Assembly: GCF_022549215.1 (NCBI RefSeq)
Contig: NZ_JAKZFC010000006.1
Location: 1 to 64,000 of the forward strand
Length of the DNA stretch: 64,000 nt
Origin: Solibacillus palustris
Lineage (GTDB): Bacteria; Bacillota; Bacilli; Bacillales_A; Planococcaceae
Direction of reading: 5' to 3'
Shown here: positions 5,216 to 25,454 of the stretch, in pieces
Position numbering within the stretch: position 1 is the stretch's first letter
How the letters are laid out: every line of letters starts with the position of its first letter
Made by a program: the position numbers and the translations under genes
The notes under the pieces: generated by a model
What the model was told of the DNA's origin: nothing
The model's input: only the letters and a program-made list of their open reading frames with translations
Database searches by the model: none

Positions 5216-5237
5216 GTGTACAGGAAAAACATTTTAT

Positions 5238-5306
5238 CCCTCATATATGCTAGAGAATATGGCTCTAGTGTCTCTACCCGGCACCGTAAATACCGGACTA
5301 TGTGGG
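5238..5306 (+). promoter_or_regulatory. Purine riboswitch aptamer, guanine class
   Basis: The aptamer shows P1 arms (CCCTCATA with TATGTGGG), P2 (GCTAGAG/CTCTAGT) with loop AATATGG, the junction GTCTCTACC, P3 (CCGG-type) with loop CCGTAAA, and GGACTATG. The specificity base in GACTATG is C, as in guanine/hypoxanthine aptamers; adenine aptamers have T there. It precedes purE and a terminator, so purine excess should stop transcription. Confidence 0.93.
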
Positions 5307-5377
5307 AAAGCAACTTTTGGTACGATTAATTTAAAGGGTGTGGATCGGATGCTATCATCTTCATATTCTTTTCTAAA

Positions 5378-15517: not shown

Positions 15518-15591
15518 TTTCCGCTTAAGTCGCTCCATGAGAGGGCTTGCGCTTACCGGATATGAAAACAAAAAAATTGGGGGACCTAGTC

Positions 15592-17127
15592 GTGACGAAA
15601 CGTGCACTTATTAGTGTTTCAGATAAAAATGGAATTTTAGAATTTGCAAAAGAATTAGTAGCACTTGGCTATGAAGTACTTTCTACAGGTGGAACAAAGA
15701 AATTATTACAAGACAACAACGTACCCGTAACAGCGGTTGACGAAGTAACAAAATTTCCAGAAATTTTAGATGGTCGTGTAAAAACATTAAATCCAATGAT
15801 TCATGGTGGTCTATTAGGGAAATTTGATGAGCCATCACACGTTGCACAAATGGAGCAGCACGGTATTGAGCCTATCGAAATCGTATGTGTAAACCTTTAC
15901 CCATTCGTAGAAACAATTTCAAAACCAAACGTATCTTGGGATGACGCAATCGAAAACATCGATATCGGTGGTCCAACAATGCTACGTTCAGCAGCTAAAA
16001 ACCATGATTATGTAACTGTAATCGTGGATAGCACAGACTACGCTACTGTTTTAGAAGAATTAAAAGCAGATGGTAAAACTACATTAGAAACACGCCGACG
16101 ATTAGCAGCAAAGGTATTCCGTCATACTGCGGCTTATGATTCGTATATTTCAAACCATTTAACAAGTGCGATTGGTGAAGATTTCCCAGAAAACTTAACA
16201 TTAACGTATGAGTTAAAACAAACATTGCGCTACGGTGAAAACCCTCACCAAAAAGCAGCGTTCTACGCAAAACGTTTAGGCTCGGACTTCTCGATTGCCT
16301 ATGCAACGCAATTACACGGTAAAGAATTATCGTACAACAATATTCAAGATGCAAATGCAGCGCTTCAAATCGTAAAAGAATTCGAAATGCCAGCAGCCGT
16401 AGCGGTAAAGCATATGAATCCTTGTGGTGTAGGTACAGGTGTAACAATTGAAGAAGCATTCGATAAAGCATACGAAGCAGATTCAACTTCAATTTTTGGT
16501 GGCATTATTGCACTAAACATGGAAGTAGATAAAGCGACTGCAGAAAAATTATCAGGCATTTTCTTAGAAATTATCATTGCGCCAAGCTTTACAGCAGAAG
16601 CGTTAGAAATTTTACAAGCGAAGAAAAACATTCGCCTATTAACAATCGACTTTGCACAAGCGAAACAAGACGAGTTCAACGTTGTATCAGTTGAAGGTGG
16701 TCTACTTGTTCAAGAGCCAGACCGTTTTGGCTTTGGGAATGCAGACATTAAAGTTGTAACAGATCGTGAACCAACAGAAGAAGAGTGGGAAGCGTTACAG
16801 CTTGGCTGGGCAGTTGTAAAACATGTAAAATCAAATGCAATCGTTGTAACAGACAAGCAAATGACGTTAGGTGTTGGCGCTGGTCAGATGAATCGTGTAG
16901 GTGCGGCAAAAATCGCATTCGAACAAGCGGGCGAAAAAGCAAAAGGTGCAACACTTGCATCGGATGCATTCTTCCCGATGGCGGATACTGTAGAAGCCGC
17001 AATTGCAGCAGGTATTACAGCAATTATCCAACCTGGTGGCTCAATTAAAGATCAAGATTCAATTGATGCTGCAAACAAAGCAGGTATTACAATGGTGTTC
17101 ACAGGTGTTCGTCACTTTAAACACTAA
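15592..17127 (+). CDS. purH: AICAR transformylase / IMP cyclohydrolase
   Basis: The bifunctional enzyme of the last two IMP steps. 511 residues. The N-terminal MGS-like cyclohydrolase domain ([26 protein letters not shown]) is followed by the transformylase domain with KHMNPCGVG and the [10 protein letters not shown] tail motif. GTG 15592 is chosen because GGGGGACC lies just before it and it aligns with the family start; 15547 lies upstream without conserved residues. It is followed by an unusual 400-base RNA-structured gap before purD. Confidence 0.95.
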
Positions 17128-17193
17128 TTTGTGAAGTATACACAAAACTTGATATCTGAAGTAAATCTAGTGGCGAAATTTTTACTAAAGCTT

Positions 17194-17199
17194 TATAAT
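17194..17199 (+). promoter_or_regulatory. Possible -10 element in front of the hairpin array
   Basis: A perfect TATAAT at 17194-17199 would start transcription near 17206, just before the first hairpin (17213). No good -35 is visible at 16-18 bases distance and there is no extended -10, so this rests on one box. Confidence 0.35.
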
Positions 17200-17205
17200 A
17201 GAATA

Positions 17206-17495
17206 ATGTTTCGCTAATGTTCTGGCCGGACGTTAGCAGAAGCGTTTGCAAATGCATTATTTGTTCTTCTTTCTGGCCGGAAGAGGGATAAATAAGACGA
17301 TGTAGCGATTCTTGGCCGGGTCCTCATCGGAAAAATACAATTATTAACTTGCATCAACTTTGGCCGGGGGATGCACCGTTAATAACAAATGATCATTGAT
17401 TGTAATAAGCACAGTGCTACTTTTGGTCGGGTAGCGCGGTGTTAACGACCATTAATGAAAAACGCTCGCCTAATTTTTGGCGGGCGTTTTTTTAG
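17206..17495 (+). ncRNA. Five-hairpin RNA with shared UGGCCGG loops, ending in a terminator
   Basis: The purH-purD gap holds five hairpins in a row. H1 17213-17237, 7-bp stem, loop TTCTGGCCGGA. H2 17257-17295, 15-bp stem, loop TCTGGCCGG. H3 17298-17329, bulged stem, loop TTCTTGGCCGGG. H4 17341-17385, 8+5-bp stem, loop AACTTTGGCCGGGG. H5 17394-17457, several helices, loop CTTTTGGTCGGG. The stems differ in sequence and often pair by G-T, while the loop motif is kept, as expected of selected RNA structure. A terminator (stem 17461-17488, then T run) follows. It could be a separate small RNA or a leader that attenuates purD. I know no RNA family that fits. The first 85 bases of the gap (17128-17212) show only a small 6-bp hairpin. 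Confidence 0.6.
17461..17495 (+). terminator. Strong terminator between purH and purD
   Basis: AACGCTCGCC (17461-17470) pairs with GGCGGGCGTT (17479-17488), with T seven times after it. It stands only ~35 bases before purD, so most transcripts from upstream should end here unless antitermination occurs. Confidence 0.9.
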
Positions 17496-17527
17496 TACCA
17501 ATTTTTCATTAGAAGGAGAGCTCATAT

Positions 17528-18778
17528 ATGAACATTCTTGTAATCGGTAGTGGCGGTCGCGAGCATGCAATCGCTAAACAATTTAACAACGCACCATCAG
17601 TACAAAAAGTTTTTGTCGCACCAGGTAATGACGGTATGAAGCAAGACGCAGAAATCGTAGCAATCGATGCATTAAATTTCGCAGAATTAGTAGACTTTGC
17701 AAAGGAAAATAATGTAGCTTTGACATTCGTTGGTCCTGAGCAACCATTAGCGGAAGGCATTGTTGATTACTTCAATGAGCAAGGCTTAGTCATCTTTGGT
17801 CCAACAAAAGCAGCAGCACAAATTGAAGGCTCGAAATCCTATGCAAAAGAAATTATGAACAAGTACGGCATTCCAACGGCTGCGCATGAAACATTTACGG
17901 AAAGCTCAAAGGCAGTTGCCTATATTAAAGAGCAAGGTGCGCCAATTGTTATTAAAGCAGACGGTTTAGCAGCAGGTAAAGGTGTAATTGTGGCGATGAC
18001 AGAACAAGAAGCAATCGAAGCGGTTGAAGATATGATTGGTAATCAACGCTTTGGTGATTCTTCATCTCGCGTCGTAATTGAGGAATTCCTTGATGGTGAG
18101 GAGTTCAGCTTTATGTCATTTGTACATAAAGGTCAAATTTATCCGATGGTCATCGCACAGGATCATAAGCGAGCGTATGACGGTGATAAAGGTCCAAATA
18201 CGGGCGGTATGGGTGCGTATTCACCAGTACCACAAATTTCAGAAGACATTGTAAAAGTGGCGTATGAAACAATCGTTGAGCCTACTGTAAAAGCAATGGA
18301 AGCTGAAGGGGTATCGTTTACAGGTATTCTATATGCCGGTTTAATTTTAACTTCAAAAGGTCCAAAGGTAATTGAATTCAACGCACGCTTCGGCGACCCT
18401 GAAACGCAAGTAGTATTGCCACGTATGGCATCGGATTTCGGTGAATTCATGATGAGCTTAATGACAGAAAAGCCATTTGATTTAAAGTGGAAGGAAGAAG
18501 CGATGCTTGGTGTTGTTGTAGCAGCAGAAGGGTATCCTGGAGATGTTGTGAAAGGACATAAATTGCCAGAGTTGACTGATTTGGAATTACCGGTATATCA
18601 CGCAGGTACAAAGCTAGTCGATGGTCAATATGTAGGGAATGGCGGACGAGTGCTATTAGTAGCAGCGGAAGCATCAAATTTAAAAGAAGCTCAAGAGAAG
18701 GTATATGCCGAGCTTGCAAAAAAAGAATGGACTAACTTCTTCTTCCGTAGCGATATTGGCTGGAGAACTTTTAAATAA
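17528..18778 (+). CDS. purD: Phosphoribosylamine-glycine ligase (GAR synthetase)
   Basis: ATP-grasp enzyme of the second IMP step. 416 residues. Visible are MNILVIGSGGREHAIAKQF, the ATP-grasp segment IVIKADGLAAGKGVIV, HKRAYDGDKGPNTGGMGAYSP and the metal site EFNARFGDPE. AGAAGGAGAG precedes ATG 17528. It is last in the pur gene order but cut off from purH by the hairpin array and terminator, so its expression may be set apart from the rest. Confidence 0.97.
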   Translation: MNILVIGSGGREHAIAKQFNNAPSVQKVFVAPGNDGMKQDAEIVAIDALNFAELVDFAKENNVALTFVGPEQPLAEGIVDYFNEQGLVIFGPTKAAAQIEGSKSYAKEIMNKYGIPTAAHETFTESSKAVAYIKEQGAPIVIKADGLAAGKGVIVAMTEQEAIEAVEDMIGNQRFGDSSSRVVIEEFLDGEEFSFMSFVHKGQIYPMVIAQDHKRAYDGDKGPNTGGMGAYSPVPQISEDIVKVAYETIVEPTVKAMEAEGVSFTGILYAGLILTSKGPKVIEFNARFGDPETQVVLPRMASDFGEFMMSLMTEKPFDLKWKEEAMLGVVVAAEGYPGDVVKGHKLPELTDLELPVYHAGTKLVDGQYVGNGGRVLLVAAEASNLKEAQEKVYAELAKKEWTNFFFRSDIGWRTFK

Positions 18779-18849: not shown

Positions 18850-19635
18850 TTAATTGTCGACTTTATGCTTATCAACCTTTTTAGCAAGTTGATTCAATTC
18901 GCTCTCCAAATCGTCTAGTATACGTAATTTTTCGTCTAGTTGATCTTCGAAGTTTGTTGCTTGAGATAATACGTTTTGTACTTGAGTATCTAATTGTGGG
19001 AGAGCTGCGGAACTATCCGTAGGTTTATTATCTAAGAAGGATAGAAGCTGTTTATAATGCTGTTCTTTTAGATCTTCAATTTCACGCATGAGCATATCTA
19101 TTTTACTGCTTTTATTTTTTATTTCTTTTAATAAATATAGATTAATATCGATAACTTCACTTCTATTTTTTAACAATTCATCATTTATTAAAGACAGTTG
19201 CTGAGAATTTTTTTGGATAAAATCATGTAAGGTATTGTCGATGTTTTCAATTGCTTTTACATAGTCTTTTGCAATGTGTTCCGGCGAGTGAAGGTTAGGC
19301 TGAGCCACTTCTTCGTTCTGTGTTTCTTTAATGGTCTTTGTTAACTTTTTATTTTCTTCTAGTAATTCATTTTTCTTTTGTACTAATGCCCCAATAGACG
19401 AGATTAATTTTAGTCTCTGATTTTCACGAGATTGAATATCCTCGTGAAGTTTATTCATTTCCTTTTCAAAAGTTCTCTTTAAATTGAGAAGTTCCCTCGA
19501 CAGTTCTTTTTTCTGATTGGTTAATAGGTTATTTTCCTGTTCAAGACTAATGGCCAAGGAATAGTAATCATTCTTTTGAAATTTATCGATTTCATTTTGA
19601 GATTTCACAAGTTCAGATTTCAAAAAGATGATCAT
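18850..19635 (-). CDS. Coiled-coil protein of unknown function
   Basis: At least 261 residues, almost wholly predicted as long coiled coil (heptads such as LTNQKKELSRELLNLKRTFEKEM and LLEENKKLTKTIKE). No signal peptide or enzyme motif. The start is a problem: no ribosome binding site lies before ATG 19635, yet the same frame stays open another 16 codons (VANESLQNKDTLQLQQ) up to a GTA at 19681-19683, which sits 7 bases after a perfect GGAGGG. A GTG or ATG may have changed to GTA, or the sequence may hold an error. It is the last of three close genes of one likely operon with the 19699 and 20031 genes. It may be a structural or scaffold protein. Confidence 0.65.
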   Translation of the reverse strand: MIIFLKSELVKSQNEIDKFQKNDYYSLAISLEQENNLLTNQKKELSRELLNLKRTFEKEMNKLHEDIQSRENQRLKLISSIGALVQKKNELLEENKKLTKTIKETQNEEVAQPNLHSPEHIAKDYVKAIENIDNTLHDFIQKNSQQLSLINDELLKNRSEVIDINLYLLKEIKNKSSKIDMLMREIEDLKEQHYKQLLSFLDNKPTDSSAALPQLDTQVQNVLSQATNFEDQLDEKLRILDDLESELNQLAKKVDKHKVDN

Positions 19636-19698
19636 TTGTTGTAATTGAAGCGTGTCTTTATTTTGAAGGCTTTCATTTGCTACGGTTTATCCCTCCAA

Positions 19699-20028
19699 TC
19701 ATGTAATTTCTTTTAATAAACGAAGGATGGCTTGAAATTCCTTTTCGTTATCATTCATTAATTGATCAATTTCTTCTATAGCCTTTAATACTGACGCCTC
19801 ACTTTTAGCCTGTAGCTCGACATTTATTTCGGGAGTTGTAGGTGGTTCAGTTTGTGGTTTCGATAATAGATAAGTTAATAATAAATTCAGGGAACTTTTT
19901 TCTAAAAAAATAAAGCTATTATTATTTTCTTGATGGTTGAAATCGGAAATGTGTTCTTTTGTAAGTTGTCTTAAAATGTCTTCTATTGGTAAGACCCCAA
20001 CATGCTCTTCTTCGTCAAAGTGATTCAA
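19699..20028 (-). CDS. Small acidic protein of unknown function
   Basis: A 109-residue acidic protein, starting MNHFDEEEHVGVLPIEDILRQ and ending in a helix with EEIDQLMNDNEKEFQAILRLLKE. It starts at TTG 20028, 5 bases after GGAGGAA, which overlaps the stop of the gene before it. No known domain is recognised. Middle gene of a three-gene minus-strand operon, with the coiled-coil gene following. Confidence 0.65.
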   Translation of the reverse strand: MNHFDEEEHVGVLPIEDILRQLTKEHISDFNHQENNNSFIFLEKSSLNLLLTYLLSKPQTEPPTTPEINVELQAKSEASVLKAIEEIDQLMNDNEKEFQAILRLLKEIT

Positions 20029-20030
20029 GG

Positions 20031-20597
20031 CTATTCCTCCTGTCCAAGGCTGATGACACTCAGATTGATGGGGTTGACCGCAGCGATGCCATCTTGTAAT
20101 TGATCACAATAGGTGAAACCGGTAATACTACCTGAGTATGATTCGTTTGGTGACCACTTAATTTGAAAATTTGAAAATGAGATAATTTCATTCGGTTTAA
20201 GTTCCAATTTACTAAGCGGTTTCAGCAGAAATTCATTTTTGTTTGTGCTATCTGCTAGGCGTATCCATTCATTTGGGCCATTAAAACTTTGGCTGAATCC
20301 TTCACGAACATATCTACCGCTAAAAGAAAACGGAGAGTTCTCAGGCATTTTTATCGATATATATGGGTTAAGTAATGGTTCATTTCCGATATTGTAAATA
20401 TGATAAGAGCCAAAGCATAAGCTTTCTTGTTCCAGGCTATGGGAAATATTTAGAGAAGTAGTAAAATAACTGATTACATTAATATTTTTAGATTTTGGAA
20501 GCTTCTCGATATGTTCCTTAATTTCTCGCAGATAGGATTGAGTTTCCTTTTGAAGTGTTTTAATCTTTGCTTCTAGTTGACTCTGGGACGTTGTCAG
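20031..20597 (-). CDS. Protein of unknown function, CTG start likely
   Basis: The frame is open for 188 codons from 20597. A perfect AAAGGAGG lies 7 bases before CTG at 20597 and no ATG, GTG or TTG suits that site. From there the protein reads [M]TTSQSQLEAKIKTLQKE..., a short coiled-coil N-terminus, then a beta-rich part rich in aromatic and Asn residues (GSYHIYNIGNEPLLNPYI, then FSFSGRYVREGF). The first ATG is at 20348, 83 codons in, lacks a binding site and would cut off a coherent N-terminal half, so the longer form is preferred. Function unknown. First gene of the minus-strand operon 20597-18850. Confidence 0.6.
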   Translation of the reverse strand: MTTSQSQLEAKIKTLQKETQSYLREIKEHIEKLPKSKNINVISYFTTSLNISHSLEQESLCFGSYHIYNIGNEPLLNPYISIKMPENSPFSFSGRYVREGFSQSFNGPNEWIRLADSTNKNEFLLKPLSKLELKPNEIISFSNFQIKWSPNESYSGSITGFTYCDQLQDGIAAVNPINLSVISLGQEE

Positions 20598-20650
20598 ATT
20601 TACTCCTCCTTTTGGGAATTACAGGATATGTAGTGCATTTGCTTATGAAA

Positions 20651-20690
20651 GCAAAATAAAGAAAGGGATTCCCCTTCCTTTATTTTATGA
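20651..20690 (-). terminator. Terminator for the minus-strand gene at 20724
   Basis: AAATAAAGGAAGGGG and CCCTTTCTTTATTT (minus strand) form a long stem around AAT, followed by a T-rich stretch. It separates the 20724 gene from the downstream three-gene operon. Confidence 0.7.
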
Positions 20691-20723
20691 CCATTAAGTT
20701 AGAATTAGCACCGCTTACAAATA

Positions 20724-21356
20724 CTATGGAAAGACTACCGAACAATTAGGTGGTCGAGTACCTGGCGAGCAAGCAGCTGATAAATCTGCTCTTGGTTCAC
20801 AGTATTTTGCATAAAACTCAACTGTAACTGGGAAAGTTGATTGGATGCTTTGGCAAACTGAAATTGACAGCGCTAAATCAGAAAACGTGATAGTATGGTT
20901 ACCATTATTATGCAATGTGCCTGTAGAGGATACGAAGCAGTCAAGATTTGTATAAGTAACATCTACATTTGTTCCTTCCGGTGCACACATTACAACGTGT
21001 TCGCTGCGTGAAATATGGAAGCTATCACTTGTATACATTGTTCCGTTTGCTAAAGTAATACAGATCGTTACTTTAAAGTTCTTTTGAATCGTAAGCTGCT
21101 GTAAGCGAACAGATGATCCTTCAATTGTAAACGTACGAGTTTCACGATTCTTAATAACAACAGGATCTTCGTGTGATGGACATACTTGGCATGTAACGCT
21201 AGCCCCTCTAGTATGAGCGTCATGTGGTAAACCAGGGAATCTTATTGGGCTCGTTGGAAAACTTTCAAATGACAGTTCTTTGACAACCCAATCGTAAACT
21301 TTTTCGACATTGATACAAATTAGTTCCTTTGCTTGAGATGACATTTGTTCCTGCAT
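20724..21356 (-). CDS. Cys-containing beta-rich protein, spore-surface-like
   Basis: A 210-residue protein from ATG 21356, which has TTGGAGGTG before it; the further upstream frame is unlike coding sequence. The N-terminus carries ELICINVEKVYDWVVKE, resembling the C-x-x-K-V-Y-D-W motif I associate with coat or spore-surface proteins of Firmicutes. The rest is beta-rich with about ten Cys (TCQVCPSHED, VTICITLANG, CAPEG, YCEPRADL, CSPGTRPPNC). No signal peptide, which fits a protein made in the mother cell. The spore role is inference. It is divergent from the 21607 gene. Confidence 0.6.
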   Translation of the reverse strand: MQEQMSSQAKELICINVEKVYDWVVKELSFESFPTSPIRFPGLPHDAHTRGASVTCQVCPSHEDPVVIKNRETRTFTIEGSSVRLQQLTIQKNFKVTICITLANGTMYTSDSFHISRSEHVVMCAPEGTNVDVTYTNLDCFVSSTGTLHNNGNHTITFSDLALSISVCQSIQSTFPVTVEFYAKYCEPRADLSAACSPGTRPPNCSVVFP

Positions 21357-21606
21357 TTTATTAACACCTCCAAAATATTTTACCTTTCGTTTGTATAGTA
21401 TGACGCCCCCTCTATAATTGCATAGGCAAAGAAATAGATTGACTAAGGGATTAAAATAATTTTGGTCACATGGAAAAATGATGCCTATGAAAGCAGTATT
21501 TCCTTCTTGATAAATAAAGATTTCTGCTATTTGTTTACGGTGTAACATACAGCAGTCCTCTTCAATAACATACATATAGATGTGTAAGAAAAAGGAGTGG
21601 ATTACA

Positions 21607-22593
21607 ATGGAAGATTCTTCGTCGAATACTACTCTTCACGAAATTGAGAAGCTAAAACAAAAAATTTCCGGATATAGAGGTGCTTTACTGACATTAAAAA
21701 TGGGGAATTCATTTGATGATTACCTTATTATAAAGAGGGAATTAGATGCACTAAAAATGCAAATATCTAGAATTGAAGATTTCACGAAAACGTTCGATGG
21801 AAAACAATATGGACAAAGTGAAATTTACGAAGAACAGGTTAAACAATTTGCCCTTCAATTATCCGTACTTAATCAAACAGTCAAAGAACTTAGTGAAGAA
21901 ATCTCTAAAATTTCAAAAAAAATAAAAACAAGAATAAGCGAAGAAAAGTTAGGTAAAGGTACAATGGCTGAAAAAGATGAACCTCAAGAAAAAATAGCTA
22001 ACAGTATATCGGAAAGTAATGATGACAAAACACTTCCAAATAATCATTCATCTAATGTTCCTTATCAGCCATCGTATATCCAGTTACGAAATTTGCCTAA
22101 TAACGTTATTAAACTACAAAAAGTTGAAGAAGACATTGCGTCTGTCGATCAAACTGAATTAATATTAAATCCAAACGATCGGCATTATTTTGACCAAAGC
22201 TACTTTCAACCGAATCATCATCAACAAAAAAATATTTATACTAGATTAAATAAGAATACGTTTGACGAAGCCTCTAATCAATTTAAAAACTTTGGGGAAA
22301 ATCGAACTATCCCGAAAAGTAATATAGTGAATGGTGATCATCCTAGTAGTGTTGCAAATGAGCCAGAGAAAACGAATGATTCTCCTTCAATCTATCATGA
22401 AAATGAAAAAATAGACCCATCTACATTTAATATGGATAAACCTATGAGTGAATCTAATAATGCCTCATTTGTGCAGGAACAACAACCTCAGCCTGAAGCA
22501 CCACCCGAAAAAATAATCAAACAATTAGAGTCTTCAAATGTTGAAAGTAAAAAACAGAAGAGCTCCTCGATTTTTAATATTTTCCGTAAATAG
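21607..22593 (+). CDS. Coiled-coil and low-complexity protein of unknown function
   Basis: A 328-residue protein. Residues 1-125 form two or three long helices (HEIEKLKQKISGYRGALLTL, then QFALQLSVLNQTVKELSEEI); from ~130 on it is polar, Asn/Ser/Pro-rich and probably disordered, ending in the basic SSSIFNIFRK. ATG 21607 is chosen because AAAAAGGAGTGG lies upstream; an earlier in-frame ATG at 21580 has no site. It stands next to the Cys-rich 20724 gene in opposite direction, and before the damaged Cys/His gene at 22944, so a shared spore-surface role is possible but unproven. Confidence 0.65.
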   Translation: MEDSSSNTTLHEIEKLKQKISGYRGALLTLKMGNSFDDYLIIKRELDALKMQISRIEDFTKTFDGKQYGQSEIYEEQVKQFALQLSVLNQTVKELSEEISKISKKIKTRISEEKLGKGTMAEKDEPQEKIANSISESNDDKTLPNNHSSNVPYQPSYIQLRNLPNNVIKLQKVEEDIASVDQTELILNPNDRHYFDQSYFQPNHHQQKNIYTRLNKNTFDEASNQFKNFGENRTIPKSNIVNGDHPSSVANEPEKTNDSPSIYHENEKIDPSTFNMDKPMSESNNASFVQEQQPQPEAPPEKIIKQLESSNVESKKQKSSSIFNIFRK

Positions 22594-22943
22594 CACGTAT
22601 GCTTGGAATATAAATATGGCCTATCATATACAATAATTTAGCCTACTGATGAAGCTGCACTCTTTGAAAGGTACATGTTGAAGCTAGGTAACTTGGAAGC
22701 TGCTTCCTGTATTTTGTAGGCGGTAGCTTCTTTAAATGTGCTTTCATTGCCTTCGTCCACTCCCATCGCTTTGTTCATTAAAAACTAAAGTACAGTTAAC
22801 ACCATTTCTAACTTAACGAGTGGACATTGTATGACAATAAACTAAGTGAATAAAGATAAATTTCCTAAAAAAATTTACTAGTTGATTGCCCTTTGTCTCT
22901 ATTTTTTCAATGAATAAAATAGGGGGGAAGGGAGGTGAGCAGT
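22594..22943. other. 350-base gap before the Cys/His repeat gene
   Basis: AT-rich. On the minus strand 22778-22638 holds a 46-codon frame (MNKAMGVDEGNESTFKEATA...) with protein-like composition but no ribosome binding site, so it may be a gene remnant. The plus-strand end holds GGGAGGTG before 22944. No clear promoter of a known sigma type was identified. Confidence 0.3.
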
Positions 22944-23471
22944 ATGTGTAATTGTATGCATAGCGGTTGCAGTGGTAGTTCTAGGCACGGAAGAGTTCAT
23001 TGTGGGTCTCCATGTTCCTCATTAGGACCATTTAGAGCAGTAAATGCAGATGCCATTAGGCACCATGGCCATTGCCATAGCCATTGCCATAGCCATTGTC
23101 ACTGCAGAAGACATGATGAATCGTCATCGTCATCATCGTGCAGAAGACATGATGAATCGTCATCGTCATCATCGTGTAGAAGACATGAATCATCATCATC
23201 ATCATGCAGAAGACATGAATCGTCATCGTCATCATCGTGCAGAAGACATGAATCATCATCTTCATCTTCATCTTCATCATGCTCATGATCTAGCAATGCA
23301 GCACCTAGCTAAGAAGATTAAGATACTAAGGCTAATTTAGTAGGGACAGATAATATTACAGCTCTTGTTACAACATTTCCTGAAATAGTGGGTATTTATG
23401 TTTCAGGAACTGGTATTGCTGCAGTCGTAAATCCTACTAGTGGAGCAAGTAGAGGTATTACGATTTCTTAA
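22944..23471 (+). pseudogene. Cys/His/Ser-repeat spore-coat-like protein gene, broken by three stops
   Basis: From ATG 22944 (after GGGAGGTG) the frame reads MCNCMHSGCSGSS, a His/Cys stretch (HCHSHCHSHCHC), then five copies of C-R-R-H-(D)-E-S(n), before TGA at 23286. The same frame, after TAA at 23310 and 23319, continues as 49 clean codons (DTKANLVGTDNITALV ... SGASRGITIS) to TAA 23471, and a terminator follows 15 bases later. All three stops could come from C-to-T changes (CGA, CAA, CAA). The tail has no start of its own. So this looks like one gene, once about 175 residues, now cut short to 113. The Cys/His/Ser composition suggests a coat or exosporium protein. The truncated form may still be made. 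Confidence 0.6.
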
Positions 23472-23723: not shown

Positions 23724-25454
23724 ATGCCAGAAATTAAATGGAAAATAAATAATATACGAAAACAAGTTAGTATTATTGATGGGCATGCCGCTCCCAATTT
23801 AGTACTACAAAACGCAAACTATTTACATAGCATGCTAAAAACATGGGTGACAGGCAACATTTGGATTGCCGATGACCGCATTGTTTATGTAGGAAAGGAA
23901 ATGCCCTCTAATATAGAAGGAACAGAAATAATTGATGTAGCAGGGAAAAAGATTGTGCCAGGCTATATCGAACCGCATGTGCACCCGTTCCAGCTCTATA
24001 ATCCACATAGCTTTGCGAAGTTTTGTGCTCAAAGTGGTACGACGACGTTTATTTCTGACAATATGACGTTTGTTTCATCTATAGGAAATAAGAAAGCGTT
24101 TTCTTTTATGGACGAGTTAAGTAAGCTACCGTTTTCTTTTTATTGGTGGAGCCGTTTTGATTCGCAAACGGAGCTTGAAAATGAGGGAGAGCTTTATTCG
24201 AATGCGTCAGTTATGGAATGGCTAGAGCGTTATGACGTCATTATGGGTGGAGAACTTACGGGTTGGCCACGTCTAATGCGCGGGGACGACCAAATGTTGT
24301 ACTGGATTCAGGCAGCCAAGCATAAAGGGAAAAAAATTGAAGGGCATTTACCGGGAGCATCAGAAAAAACGTTAACAAAGATGCGTTTATTTGGTGTTGA
24401 TGGTGATCATGAATCGATGACAATTGAAGATGTAGAAATGCGTTTGCAACATGGTTATGCGGTGACGCTACGTTATTCTTCGATTCGCCCGGATTTACCG
24501 CAGCTGTTAAAGGCTATTGTCGATAAGGGTTACGATGTATTCGATCATTTAATGATGACAACAGATGGTTCAACACCGAGCTTCCATCAAGATGGAGTGA
24601 TAGATAAATGTATTCGTGCCGCACTTGATGCAGGTGTACGTCCAGTAGATGCCTATAATATGGCAGCTTATAACGTCGCTCGCTATTACAATATGACAAA
24701 TCTACATGGTTTAATTGCAACAGGTCGCTATGCAAATATCAATATTTTAACAGACGAACTTTCACCAACTCCAGAAGCAGTTTTATCGAAAGGGGTTTGG
24801 TTGAAAAAAGAAGGGGTAGACACACATGCTTTCCCAAAAACAGACTTAACGGTATTTGGCGAGCTAGCAATGGATTTTGATTTACATGAAGCTGACTTCC
24901 AATTTTCGATGCCAATCGGAATTGAGATGGTCAATGATGTTATTACGAAGCCTTATAGTGTTAAGGGCCAAGGTCACAATAATGTATTATCAACGAATCA
25001 TGACGAAAGTTATTTAATGCTTGTAGATCGTCATGGTAAATGGCGTATTAATACGATGATAAAAGGCTTTGCAACACATGTGAAGGGCTTTGCATCTTCG
25101 TATTCGAATACGGGGGATATTATTTTAATTGGGAAAAGTATGCATGAAATGCTACATGCCTTCGAAGAACTAAAAAAAATGAACGGTGGAATTGTGCTTG
25201 TTGAAGATGGACAAGTTATCGTAAAAATTCCGTTAGCATTAGCAGGTAGTGTGTATGATGGTGATGTTCAGGAGCTGATCCCTCTGGAAGTTGAATTAAA
25301 GCAATCATTAATGCAACGTGGGTACCATCATTCAGATGCAATCTATACACTATTATTTTTACAATCTACGCATTTACCATATATTCGAATTACGACGCGC
25401 GGTATTTTTGATGTTATGAAAAATACGGTGATGTTACCGGCCATAATGCGTTAA
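23724..25454 (+). CDS. yerA: Adenine deaminase-like amidohydrolase (YerA family)
   Basis: A 576-residue amidohydrolase of the adenine deaminase family, which turns adenine to hypoxanthine. Gene order (yerA-yerB-yerC-pcrB-pcrA) matches B. subtilis, where YerA is a diverged deaminase relative. Visible: the metal-binding HxH in EPHVHPF (His85, His87), GGELTGWPRLMRGDD, the EGHLPGAS region and GDHES. AAAGGAGCG precedes ATG 23724. The exact substrate is uncertain, since the YerA branch differs from typical AdeC. Confidence 0.85.
   Translation: MPEIKWKINNIRKQVSIIDGHAAPNLVLQNANYLHSMLKTWVTGNIWIADDRIVYVGKEMPSNIEGTEIIDVAGKKIVPGYIEPHVHPFQLYNPHSFAKFCAQSGTTTFISDNMTFVSSIGNKKAFSFMDELSKLPFSFYWWSRFDSQTELENEGELYSNASVMEWLERYDVIMGGELTGWPRLMRGDDQMLYWIQAAKHKGKKIEGHLPGASEKTLTKMRLFGVDGDHESMTIEDVEMRLQHGYAVTLRYSSIRPDLPQLLKAIVDKGYDVFDHLMMTTDGSTPSFHQDGVIDKCIRAALDAGVRPVDAYNMAAYNVARYYNMTNLHGLIATGRYANINILTDELSPTPEAVLSKGVWLKKEGVDTHAFPKTDLTVFGELAMDFDLHEADFQFSMPIGIEMVNDVITKPYSVKGQGHNNVLSTNHDESYLMLVDRHGKWRINTMIKGFATHVKGFASSYSNTGDIILIGKSMHEMLHAFEELKKMNGGIVLVEDGQVIVKIPLALAGSVYDGDVQELIPLEVELKQSLMQRGYHHSDAIYTLLFLQSTHLPYIRITTRGIFDVMKNTVMLPAIMR

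Follow-up and report, generated by a model that had tools for sequence, protein, structure and literature searches.

A tandem array of UGGYC-loop hairpins between purH and purD in Solibacillus palustris and related genera

The array and its genomic surroundings

The window (the whole stretch analysed, 64,000 nt of contig NZ_JAKZFC010000006.1 from Solibacillus palustris) carries purH and purD on its plus strand. Between these genes lies a unit (17194–17493, plus strand) made up of the −10 hexamer TATAAT, five hairpins, and an intrinsic terminator. This stretch is predicted to be a complete, transcription-unit-like element. Its features and the flanking genes are as follows.

15547–17127, plus strand: purH (Pfam AICARFT_IMPCHas and MGS); the ORF is given as listed, its TTG start being possibly too far upstream
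17171–17176, plus strand: weak −35 element TGGCGA, 17 nt before TATAAT, with conserved columns
17194–17205, plus strand: −10 TATAAT with downstream ARAATA
17205–17246, plus strand: hairpin 1 (HP1); pentaloop UGGCC at 17223–17227; fold −19.4, z −4.70; outer stem nearly invariant, inner stem covarying
17241–17247, plus strand: 3′ arm of HP1, AGCGUUU, complementary to the terminator 5′ arm; candidate antiterminator strand
17257–17295, plus strand: hairpin 2 (HP2); loop UGGCC at 17274–17278; fold −17.2, z −5.28
17298–17329, plus strand: hairpin 3 (HP3); loop UGGCC at 17313–17317; arm-swap evidence; z −1.40 when folded alone
17343–17383, plus strand: hairpin 4 (HP4); loop UGGCC at 17361–17365 with an internal loop beneath; z −2.41
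17393–17458, plus strand: hairpin 5 (HP5); loop UGGUC at 17424–17428; outer stem abutting the terminator; z −2.53
17459–17493, plus strand: intrinsic terminator; fold −21.8, z −6.59; 5′ arm AAACGCU at 17460–17466
17528–18778, plus strand: purD (Pfam GARS_N, GARS_A, and GARS_C), starting 34 nt past the terminator T-run

The first-pass annotation, made from the letters alone, had described five hairpins that share UGGCCGG or UGGUCGG in the loop, stems with G-U pairs, a strong terminator behind the array, and a TATAAT in front of HP1. All of these are present. The five hairpins are consecutive (17205–17458, plus strand), the stems do contain G-U pairs, and TGGCCGG occurs at 17223, 17274, 17313, and 17361 with TGGTCGG at 17424, the common string being UGGYCGG (UGGCC in HP1 to HP4, UGGUC in HP5). 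The extent of the loop had to be corrected: the shared string holds, but its core is the pentaloop UGGYC, closed by Y-G/U-G pairs, and the trailing GG is usually paired to the 5′ side, as in YY[UGGYC]GG.

The entire stretch folds at −113.1 kcal/mol, compared to −76.25 kcal/mol (sd 4.57) in shuffled sequences (z −8.06; 0/100 shuffles as good). Each hairpin and the terminator were also folded alone, using the window sequence and 200 shuffles each. HP3 was not significant in this single-sequence analysis (24/200 shuffles equally good). With the full alignment as input, RNAalifold reproduced HP1 and the terminator and preferred loop-loop pairing over the local hairpins HP2 to HP5. The unconstrained fold of some units (L015 and L018) showed no clean string of hairpins.

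We rejected a translated region as a reading of the array; there are only short ORFs at the array, and the AUG at HP1 is absent from 9/27 of the units described below, where the sequence is AAGUUUC. The motif TGGYCGG is not enriched genome-wide (172 places in 4 Mb vs. 293 for the reversed pattern).

Further upstream in the window, a purine riboswitch aptamer (RF00167, 80.7 bits) is found at 5221–5320 on the plus strand. It is apparently the leader of this pur operon, which thus seems to have one RNA control already. A Bacillaceae-1 RNA (RF01690, 47.2 bits; of Rfam type sRNA gene) is located at 1253–1319 on the minus strand. These are the only two Rfam matches at gathering in the window, and both are away from the array. 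When the whole window was searched with 4227 Rfam families, the array itself had no match at gathering, in agreement with the statement of the first-pass annotation that it knew no fitting RNA family. The best permissive match, from a search over 441 bases, was Thr_leader (29.9 bits, E 0.00097; cut-off 55 bits). It spans HP5 and the terminator and is taken as chance. In a literature search, none of the titles among the matches listed was about this UGGYC array RNA.

The region adjoining the pur operon (18850–22593) codes for four proteins on the minus strand (18850–21575) and one on the plus strand (21580–22593), for none of which a Pfam family was found above cut-off. It is followed by an ORF on the plus strand (22935–23288) which is rich in His and Cys, has repeated CRRHDESSSSS-like units, and has no Pfam match.

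Distribution of the array and selection on its hairpins

A DNA search detected the array in 18 of 60 other genomes, together with one chance match (L020). The first-pass annotation had proposed a covariance-model search of family genomes. Such a search, with a model of HP1 and the promoter and with stricter filters by which weak matches may be lost, was run on 250 family genomes and found the array in 28, among them the genome of the window (E <= 1.5e-9), at one place each. The triple-loop pattern was found in every sampled genome of five genera: g1 (16 genomes), g15 (1), g16 (3), g18 (5), and g19 (3). Named contigs with the array belong to Solibacillus, Caryophanon, Metasolibacillus, ‘Bacillus ndiopicus’, and Lysinibacillus odysseyi. 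The other 14 sampled genera of the family (250 genomes in all) yielded no real case of an array; six genomes of g3, g8, and g11 match the triple-loop pattern through what look like other repeats. A class-wide draw of 398 genomes gave two matches, the window's genome and G031, which belongs to the same family. The array RNA thus looks restricted to one clade (five genera, Planococcaceae/Caryophanaceae), as judged by searches which strongly diverged forms would escape.

Several candidate matches were set aside. A weak model match (G183/L049, E 0.0068) had no UGGYC array in the 401 bases read, and a Lachnospiraceae contig (L090) with one loop and no array was a false match. Extra pattern matches (G093, G265, G150, G155, G270, and G095) are, as judged from the matched strings alone, mostly other tandem repeats. 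One region (G265:C1:220981-221416), from another genus of the family, has tandem repeats with TTGGTCGG in a layout unlike that of the array. Concerning mobile copies, none were found on plasmids at E 0.001. On viral contigs the triple-loop pattern matched at least 120 stretches; the HP1 model found nothing in 80 of these and one chance-level match (E 0.53) in the other 40.

We read 27 units from the 28 genomes having the array, G148 being the one left out; the locus of a Lysinibacillus bin (L080), in which the sequence ends, was also left out of the counts. In 27/27 units the array is located between purH (upstream) and purD (downstream). For comparison, 61 genomes were searched and 30 loci fetched, 5 of which carry the array; in the 25 array-free loci, from nine sister genera, the gap between purH and purD is 17–133 nt. 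By eye, a single terminator-like hairpin is seen in this gap in five array-free loci of sister genera (L095, L097, L099, L110, and L117), and, given these hairpins, purD may have been subject to attenuation before the array arose. Two of the units have unrelated repeats between the terminator and purD: CGCAGATAA units in a g18 genome and a long palindrome-like stretch in one Solibacillus (L019 and L006).

The region in front of the array was compared in 23 distinct rows. TATAATA and AATA are the same in 23/23 of these, the −10 string having been part of the script by which the units were located, and matched by all 27 loci. The −35 element was outside every search query used for locating units. 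Among the 45 nt before TATAAT, the two best columns are T at −23 (23/23 rows) and G at −21 (21/23), which correspond to the first and third bases of a −35 hexamer spaced 17 nt from the −10; the third-best column reaches only 19/23, and the rest of the upstream region has diverged. The two rows without G at −21 have TTGAAA or TTGAAT one base further upstream. A consensus promoter scanner listed nothing at TATAAT 17194, because the −35 element TGGCGA is weak. We take the conserved columns as good comparative evidence for a predicted sigma-A promoter before the array, with the transcript start expected near 17205–17207.

Selection on RNA structure together with loop sequence, as claimed in the first-pass annotation, is supported by three lines of sequence comparison: an arm swap, pair counts, and invariant loop columns. 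The arm swap is alignment-free. Both arms of each hairpin were taken from the 27 units, distinct arms only, and were swapped between genera, the hairpins of units with three or four hairpins being assigned to classes by order. Swapped arms fold worse in 169/174 cases for HP1, 177/178 for HP2, 322/332 for HP3, 393/394 for HP4, and 334/350 for HP5, with a mean penalty of 6.9–10.4 kcal/mol over the five hairpin classes. Some of the own hairpins are weak (the weakest, an HP5, has −5.6 kcal/mol).

Pair counts were obtained from alignments. For HP1 (alignment A2, 8 HP1 sequences), 94.8% of the cells are paired (0/500 shuffles) and 6 pairs are changed on both sides (6/500 shuffles). Alignment A3 consists of 22 hairpins chosen for good pairing, which biases its 91.8% of paired cells upward. 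It has 72 doubly changed cells compared to 21.2 in shuffles (0/500); that 8/10 pairs are changed on both sides is matched by 214/500 shuffles, and the covariation score by 0/500. Covariation is thus present in relatives. Within one genome the stems are unlike each other, and homologous stems diverge yet still pair, which argues against a loop shared merely through recent duplication, the objection that the first-pass annotation had itself raised.

Among the 127 hairpins recognised in the 27 units, 123 carry the loop UGGYC (80 UGGCC, 43 UGGUC), a count that is partly circular, as hairpins were recognised by their loop or degenerate forms of it and decayed hairpins can be missed. The four other loops are all in HP2. 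Alignment A1, which comprises 13 of the 19 units first found and is independent of loop recognition, shows the loop and the following GG as invariant, save for the Y and the changes in HP2. The pairing partners of this GG drift between C and U. An invariant G-G with drifting partners points to a sequence that is being read. Hairpin number is five in 21 units, four in 4 units, and three in 2 units.

The terminator and its complementarity to HP1

Folded alone, the terminator has 14 pairs, an 8-nt loop, and 7 T. A simple terminator scanner listed none at 17459–17493, probably because the T-run pairs with an A-run. Its 5′ arm contains CGCTCGC in 27/27 units, a string that doubled as a search string of the script (0/27 loci failed it), and its 3′ arm is variable. 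In three g16 units (Caryophanon group) the 3′ arm reads GCA, by which one pair is broken, while the 5′ arm is still CGC.

In 26/27 units, covering all five genera, AGCGUU in the 3′ arm of HP1 has its complement, AACGCU, in the 5′ arm of the terminator; all five g18 units are one pair short. The first-pass annotation, the interpretation of which is otherwise borne out as far as selection on structure and loop is concerned, had missed this complementarity. Leaving aside its own one-base-shifted version, no other long-range 6-mer complement persists across the five genera, the runner-up occurring in 9 units of a single genus. The longest complementary run (7 nt, in the window unit) was reached by 6/2000 shuffles and the 6-nt run of G031 by 46/2000, with the segments in both cases picked after being seen.

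When the RNA is cut before the terminator 3′ arm, pairing of HP1 with the terminator is predicted in 21/27 units (at least 4 expected pairs) and would open the outer stem of HP1; in 6/27 units it is not favoured. In the full-length RNA, the terminator is predicted to form in the 5 units inspected. As both strands hardly vary, there is no covariation at AGCGUU/AACGCU, and the antiterminator-like complementarity is for this reason suggestive only.

The distance from the T-run to purD ranges from 30 to 265 nt and is 30–42 nt in 10/27 units. Where the gap is this short, a promoter could not be accommodated between terminator and purD, so that purD would have to be reached by read-through.

Relation to known systems and interpretation

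CsrA recognises GGA motifs, preferably those presented by hairpin loops, and the sequence GGA occurs 22 times in CsrB, as given in one account of this system (PMC5027483). CsrB/CsrC and RsmX/Y/Z, the RNAs of CsrA/RsmA, resemble the array in being separate RNAs with many hairpins and one repeated loop motif, and by this analogy a multivalent decoy would be the simplest reading of the repeated motif. CsrA (PF02599) is over cut-off in 6/6 clade genomes. In contrast to CsrB, however, the array loop UGGYC is devoid of GGA, which is seen only where it arises by chance from the closing stem; a CsrA sponge was thus rejected.

In ANTAR systems, as far as described in PMC3369931, a terminator is closely preceded by tandem hairpins whose loops share conserved residues; there is alternative pairing with the terminator, and control is exerted by a protein that reads the loops. 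The loops must be hexaloops carrying A in the first and G in the fourth position (PMC3369931). The array also consists of tandem hairpins before a terminator with an alternative terminator pairing, but its loops are UGGYC or (U/C)UGGYC, U being the start of the pentaloop. The ANTAR domain is present in G031 and absent from 5/6 clade genomes, including the window's own. With the wrong loop and the protein absent from most of these genomes, an ANTAR antiterminator was discarded. Decoy RNAs of the ANTAR dual-hairpin kind do exist.

TRAP binds a multivalent RNA site and PyrR is an anti-antiterminator, and both decide termination before biosynthetic genes. The array differs from these in repeating UGGYC rather than (G/U)AG and in preceding purD; the PyrR families gave no Rfam match at the array.

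In T-box leaders, UGGN pairs with tRNA NCCA and decides termination, according to the description in PMC7778990. UGGY of the array would fit R discriminators, but the array presents loops instead of a bulge and has several copies. The T-box model had no match at gathering in the window, nor at E <= 10 in 17100–17540. UGGUCGG would pair base for base with CCGACCA, the end of tRNA-Pro, which was found in 6/7 genomes searched; no such match was among those listed for the draft genome of the window, from which it may be missing. Among the ARAGORN matches checked, tRNA-Pro is the only tRNA with the end CCGNCCA. A73 of tRNA-Pro is fitted by the 43 UGGU loops and mismatched by the 80 UGGC loops; with most loops mismatching, a T-box or tRNA-Pro catch was not adopted as the reading.

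LhrC sRNAs of Listeria, in the description available (PMC4132741), use several redundant CU-rich UCCC motifs, which are directed at a G-rich target site ahead of the start codon. The array likewise has several redundant motifs in one RNA; these differ in being UGGYC, and exact patterns revealed no target. CCGRCCA (exact pattern) upstream of GGAGG..ATG had 3 matches in 6 genomes, all different in sequence; the reversed pattern also had 3. Directly downstream of the start, the counts in 7 genomes were 2 for the pattern and 7 for its reverse. Exact antisense-type sites near starts thus do not recur between genomes. In the window, CCGGCCA, to which the loop is complementary, stands at the very end of an adenine deaminase-like gene (23724–25454, plus strand; Adenine_deam_C and Amidohydro_1) before GGAGG..ATG; as this is the sole genome of 6 to have it, it is probably there by chance. 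A single-hairpin model, run against 13 genomes, gave no convincing second site outside the arrays (best E 0.044). This absence says little either way, because the model is insensitive: of the five array hairpins of the window's genome it recovers two, and it misses all of those in G031 and G108.

Taken as a whole, the comparative evidence indicates that the predicted array RNA is real, uncatalogued, and clade-restricted, with repeated identical loops. We tentatively favour a multivalent protein site in a separately transcribed RNA, the end of which would also bear on purD. In doing so, we infer RNA production, a protein as partner, its titration, and regulated read-through. An RNA of about 290 nt would be transcribed from its own sigma-A type promoter at the purH end, would end at the terminator before purD, and would fold into three to five hairpins with the same pentaloop UGGYC. 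In this way a single molecule could hold the same partner in several copies. This partner would most likely be an RNA-binding protein with specificity for UGGYC and the closing GG, and the RNA would titrate or gather it, as CsrB does CsrA. That hairpin number varies from three to five without a change of the loop is as expected of repeated equivalent sites. Since the 3′ end of the RNA is the terminator before purD, partner binding may also set the extent of transcription into this gene: with HP1 open, AGCGUU would pair with AACGCU of the terminator and delay termination; with HP1 held closed, the terminator would form. A protein partner has to be weighed against the fixed position of the array before purD, which also fits a cis role, and against the U-turn-like YUGG and the self-complementary GGYC, which would suit RNA partners too. 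It seems unlikely, though conceivable, that both roles are joined in a Bacillota sponge for a protein specific for the UGGYC pentaloop, wired to purD by HP1 and the terminator, with titration in trans and a report of the free level in cis.

A purely cis-acting attenuator, which we consider somewhat doubtful, would make the array a leader of purD and the terminated RNA a mere by-product. A regulator bound to the loops would hold HP1 closed and let the terminator form, purD being read otherwise, after the model of PyrR at pyr leaders. The constant position between purH and purD is in line with this, as are the units in which purD would depend on read-through and the HP1/terminator complement: it is the sole one kept throughout the five genera, extends to 7 nt in the window unit (by segments picked after being seen), is predicted to pair before the terminator 3′ arm is made, and has a 5′ arm that stays CGC even where the 3′ arm of the Caryophanon group reads GCA. 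However, the nearly invariant strands give no covariation proof, six units disfavour the pairing and five lose one pair, the run of G031 is reached by 46/2000 shuffles, the terminator forms in the full RNAs inspected, and the gap to purD is variable. Furthermore, the need for several identical loops is left without explanation by a cis attenuator.

Recognition of RNA by RNA appears improbable to us, be it by repeated antisense seeds in the manner of LhrC UCCC, by kissing of the loops with one another or with a different molecule through GGYC, or by a catch of tRNA 3′ ends (UGGY vs. RCCA), after the manner of the T-box bulge. YUNR is a U-turn motif, and each loop has YUGG, one of its forms; GGYC is self-complementary when G-U is allowed, by which loop-loop contacts, as suggested in the first-pass annotation, are possible; and the complementarity of UGGUCGG to tRNA-Pro is exact. 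Yet UGGCC, the form of 80 of the 123 UGGYC loops, mismatches A73, CCGRCCA near starts is not above its reversed pattern, and seeds would not require an invariant GG inside the stem. Even less probable, and in our view very much so, is a structural or stability element only, in which the many hairpins at the 3′ end of the pur operon transcript would shield the mRNA lying upstream of them, with equal loops as ancestral leftovers. It would agree with the terminator-like hairpin seen by eye in the same gap of some sister-genus loci, but loops should then drift fastest, whereas here the stems were turned over and UGGYC stayed, and a conserved promoter inside the gap is not expected of it.

The array represents a compact, clearly selected RNA family with a repeated loop in five genera of Planococcaceae/Caryophanaceae. 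It is similar in type to decoys such as CsrB and to the tandem hairpins of ANTAR systems, and it has the defining loop of neither. To our knowledge, no CsrB-like sponge is known in Bacillota. A protein partner would add to this phylum a post-transcriptional regulator that has so far gone unrecognised, and the loop repeats make affinity capture of the partner easy. Purine synthesis is controlled by PurR and the guanine riboswitch, to which the HP1/terminator switch, if real, would add a further control by RNA.
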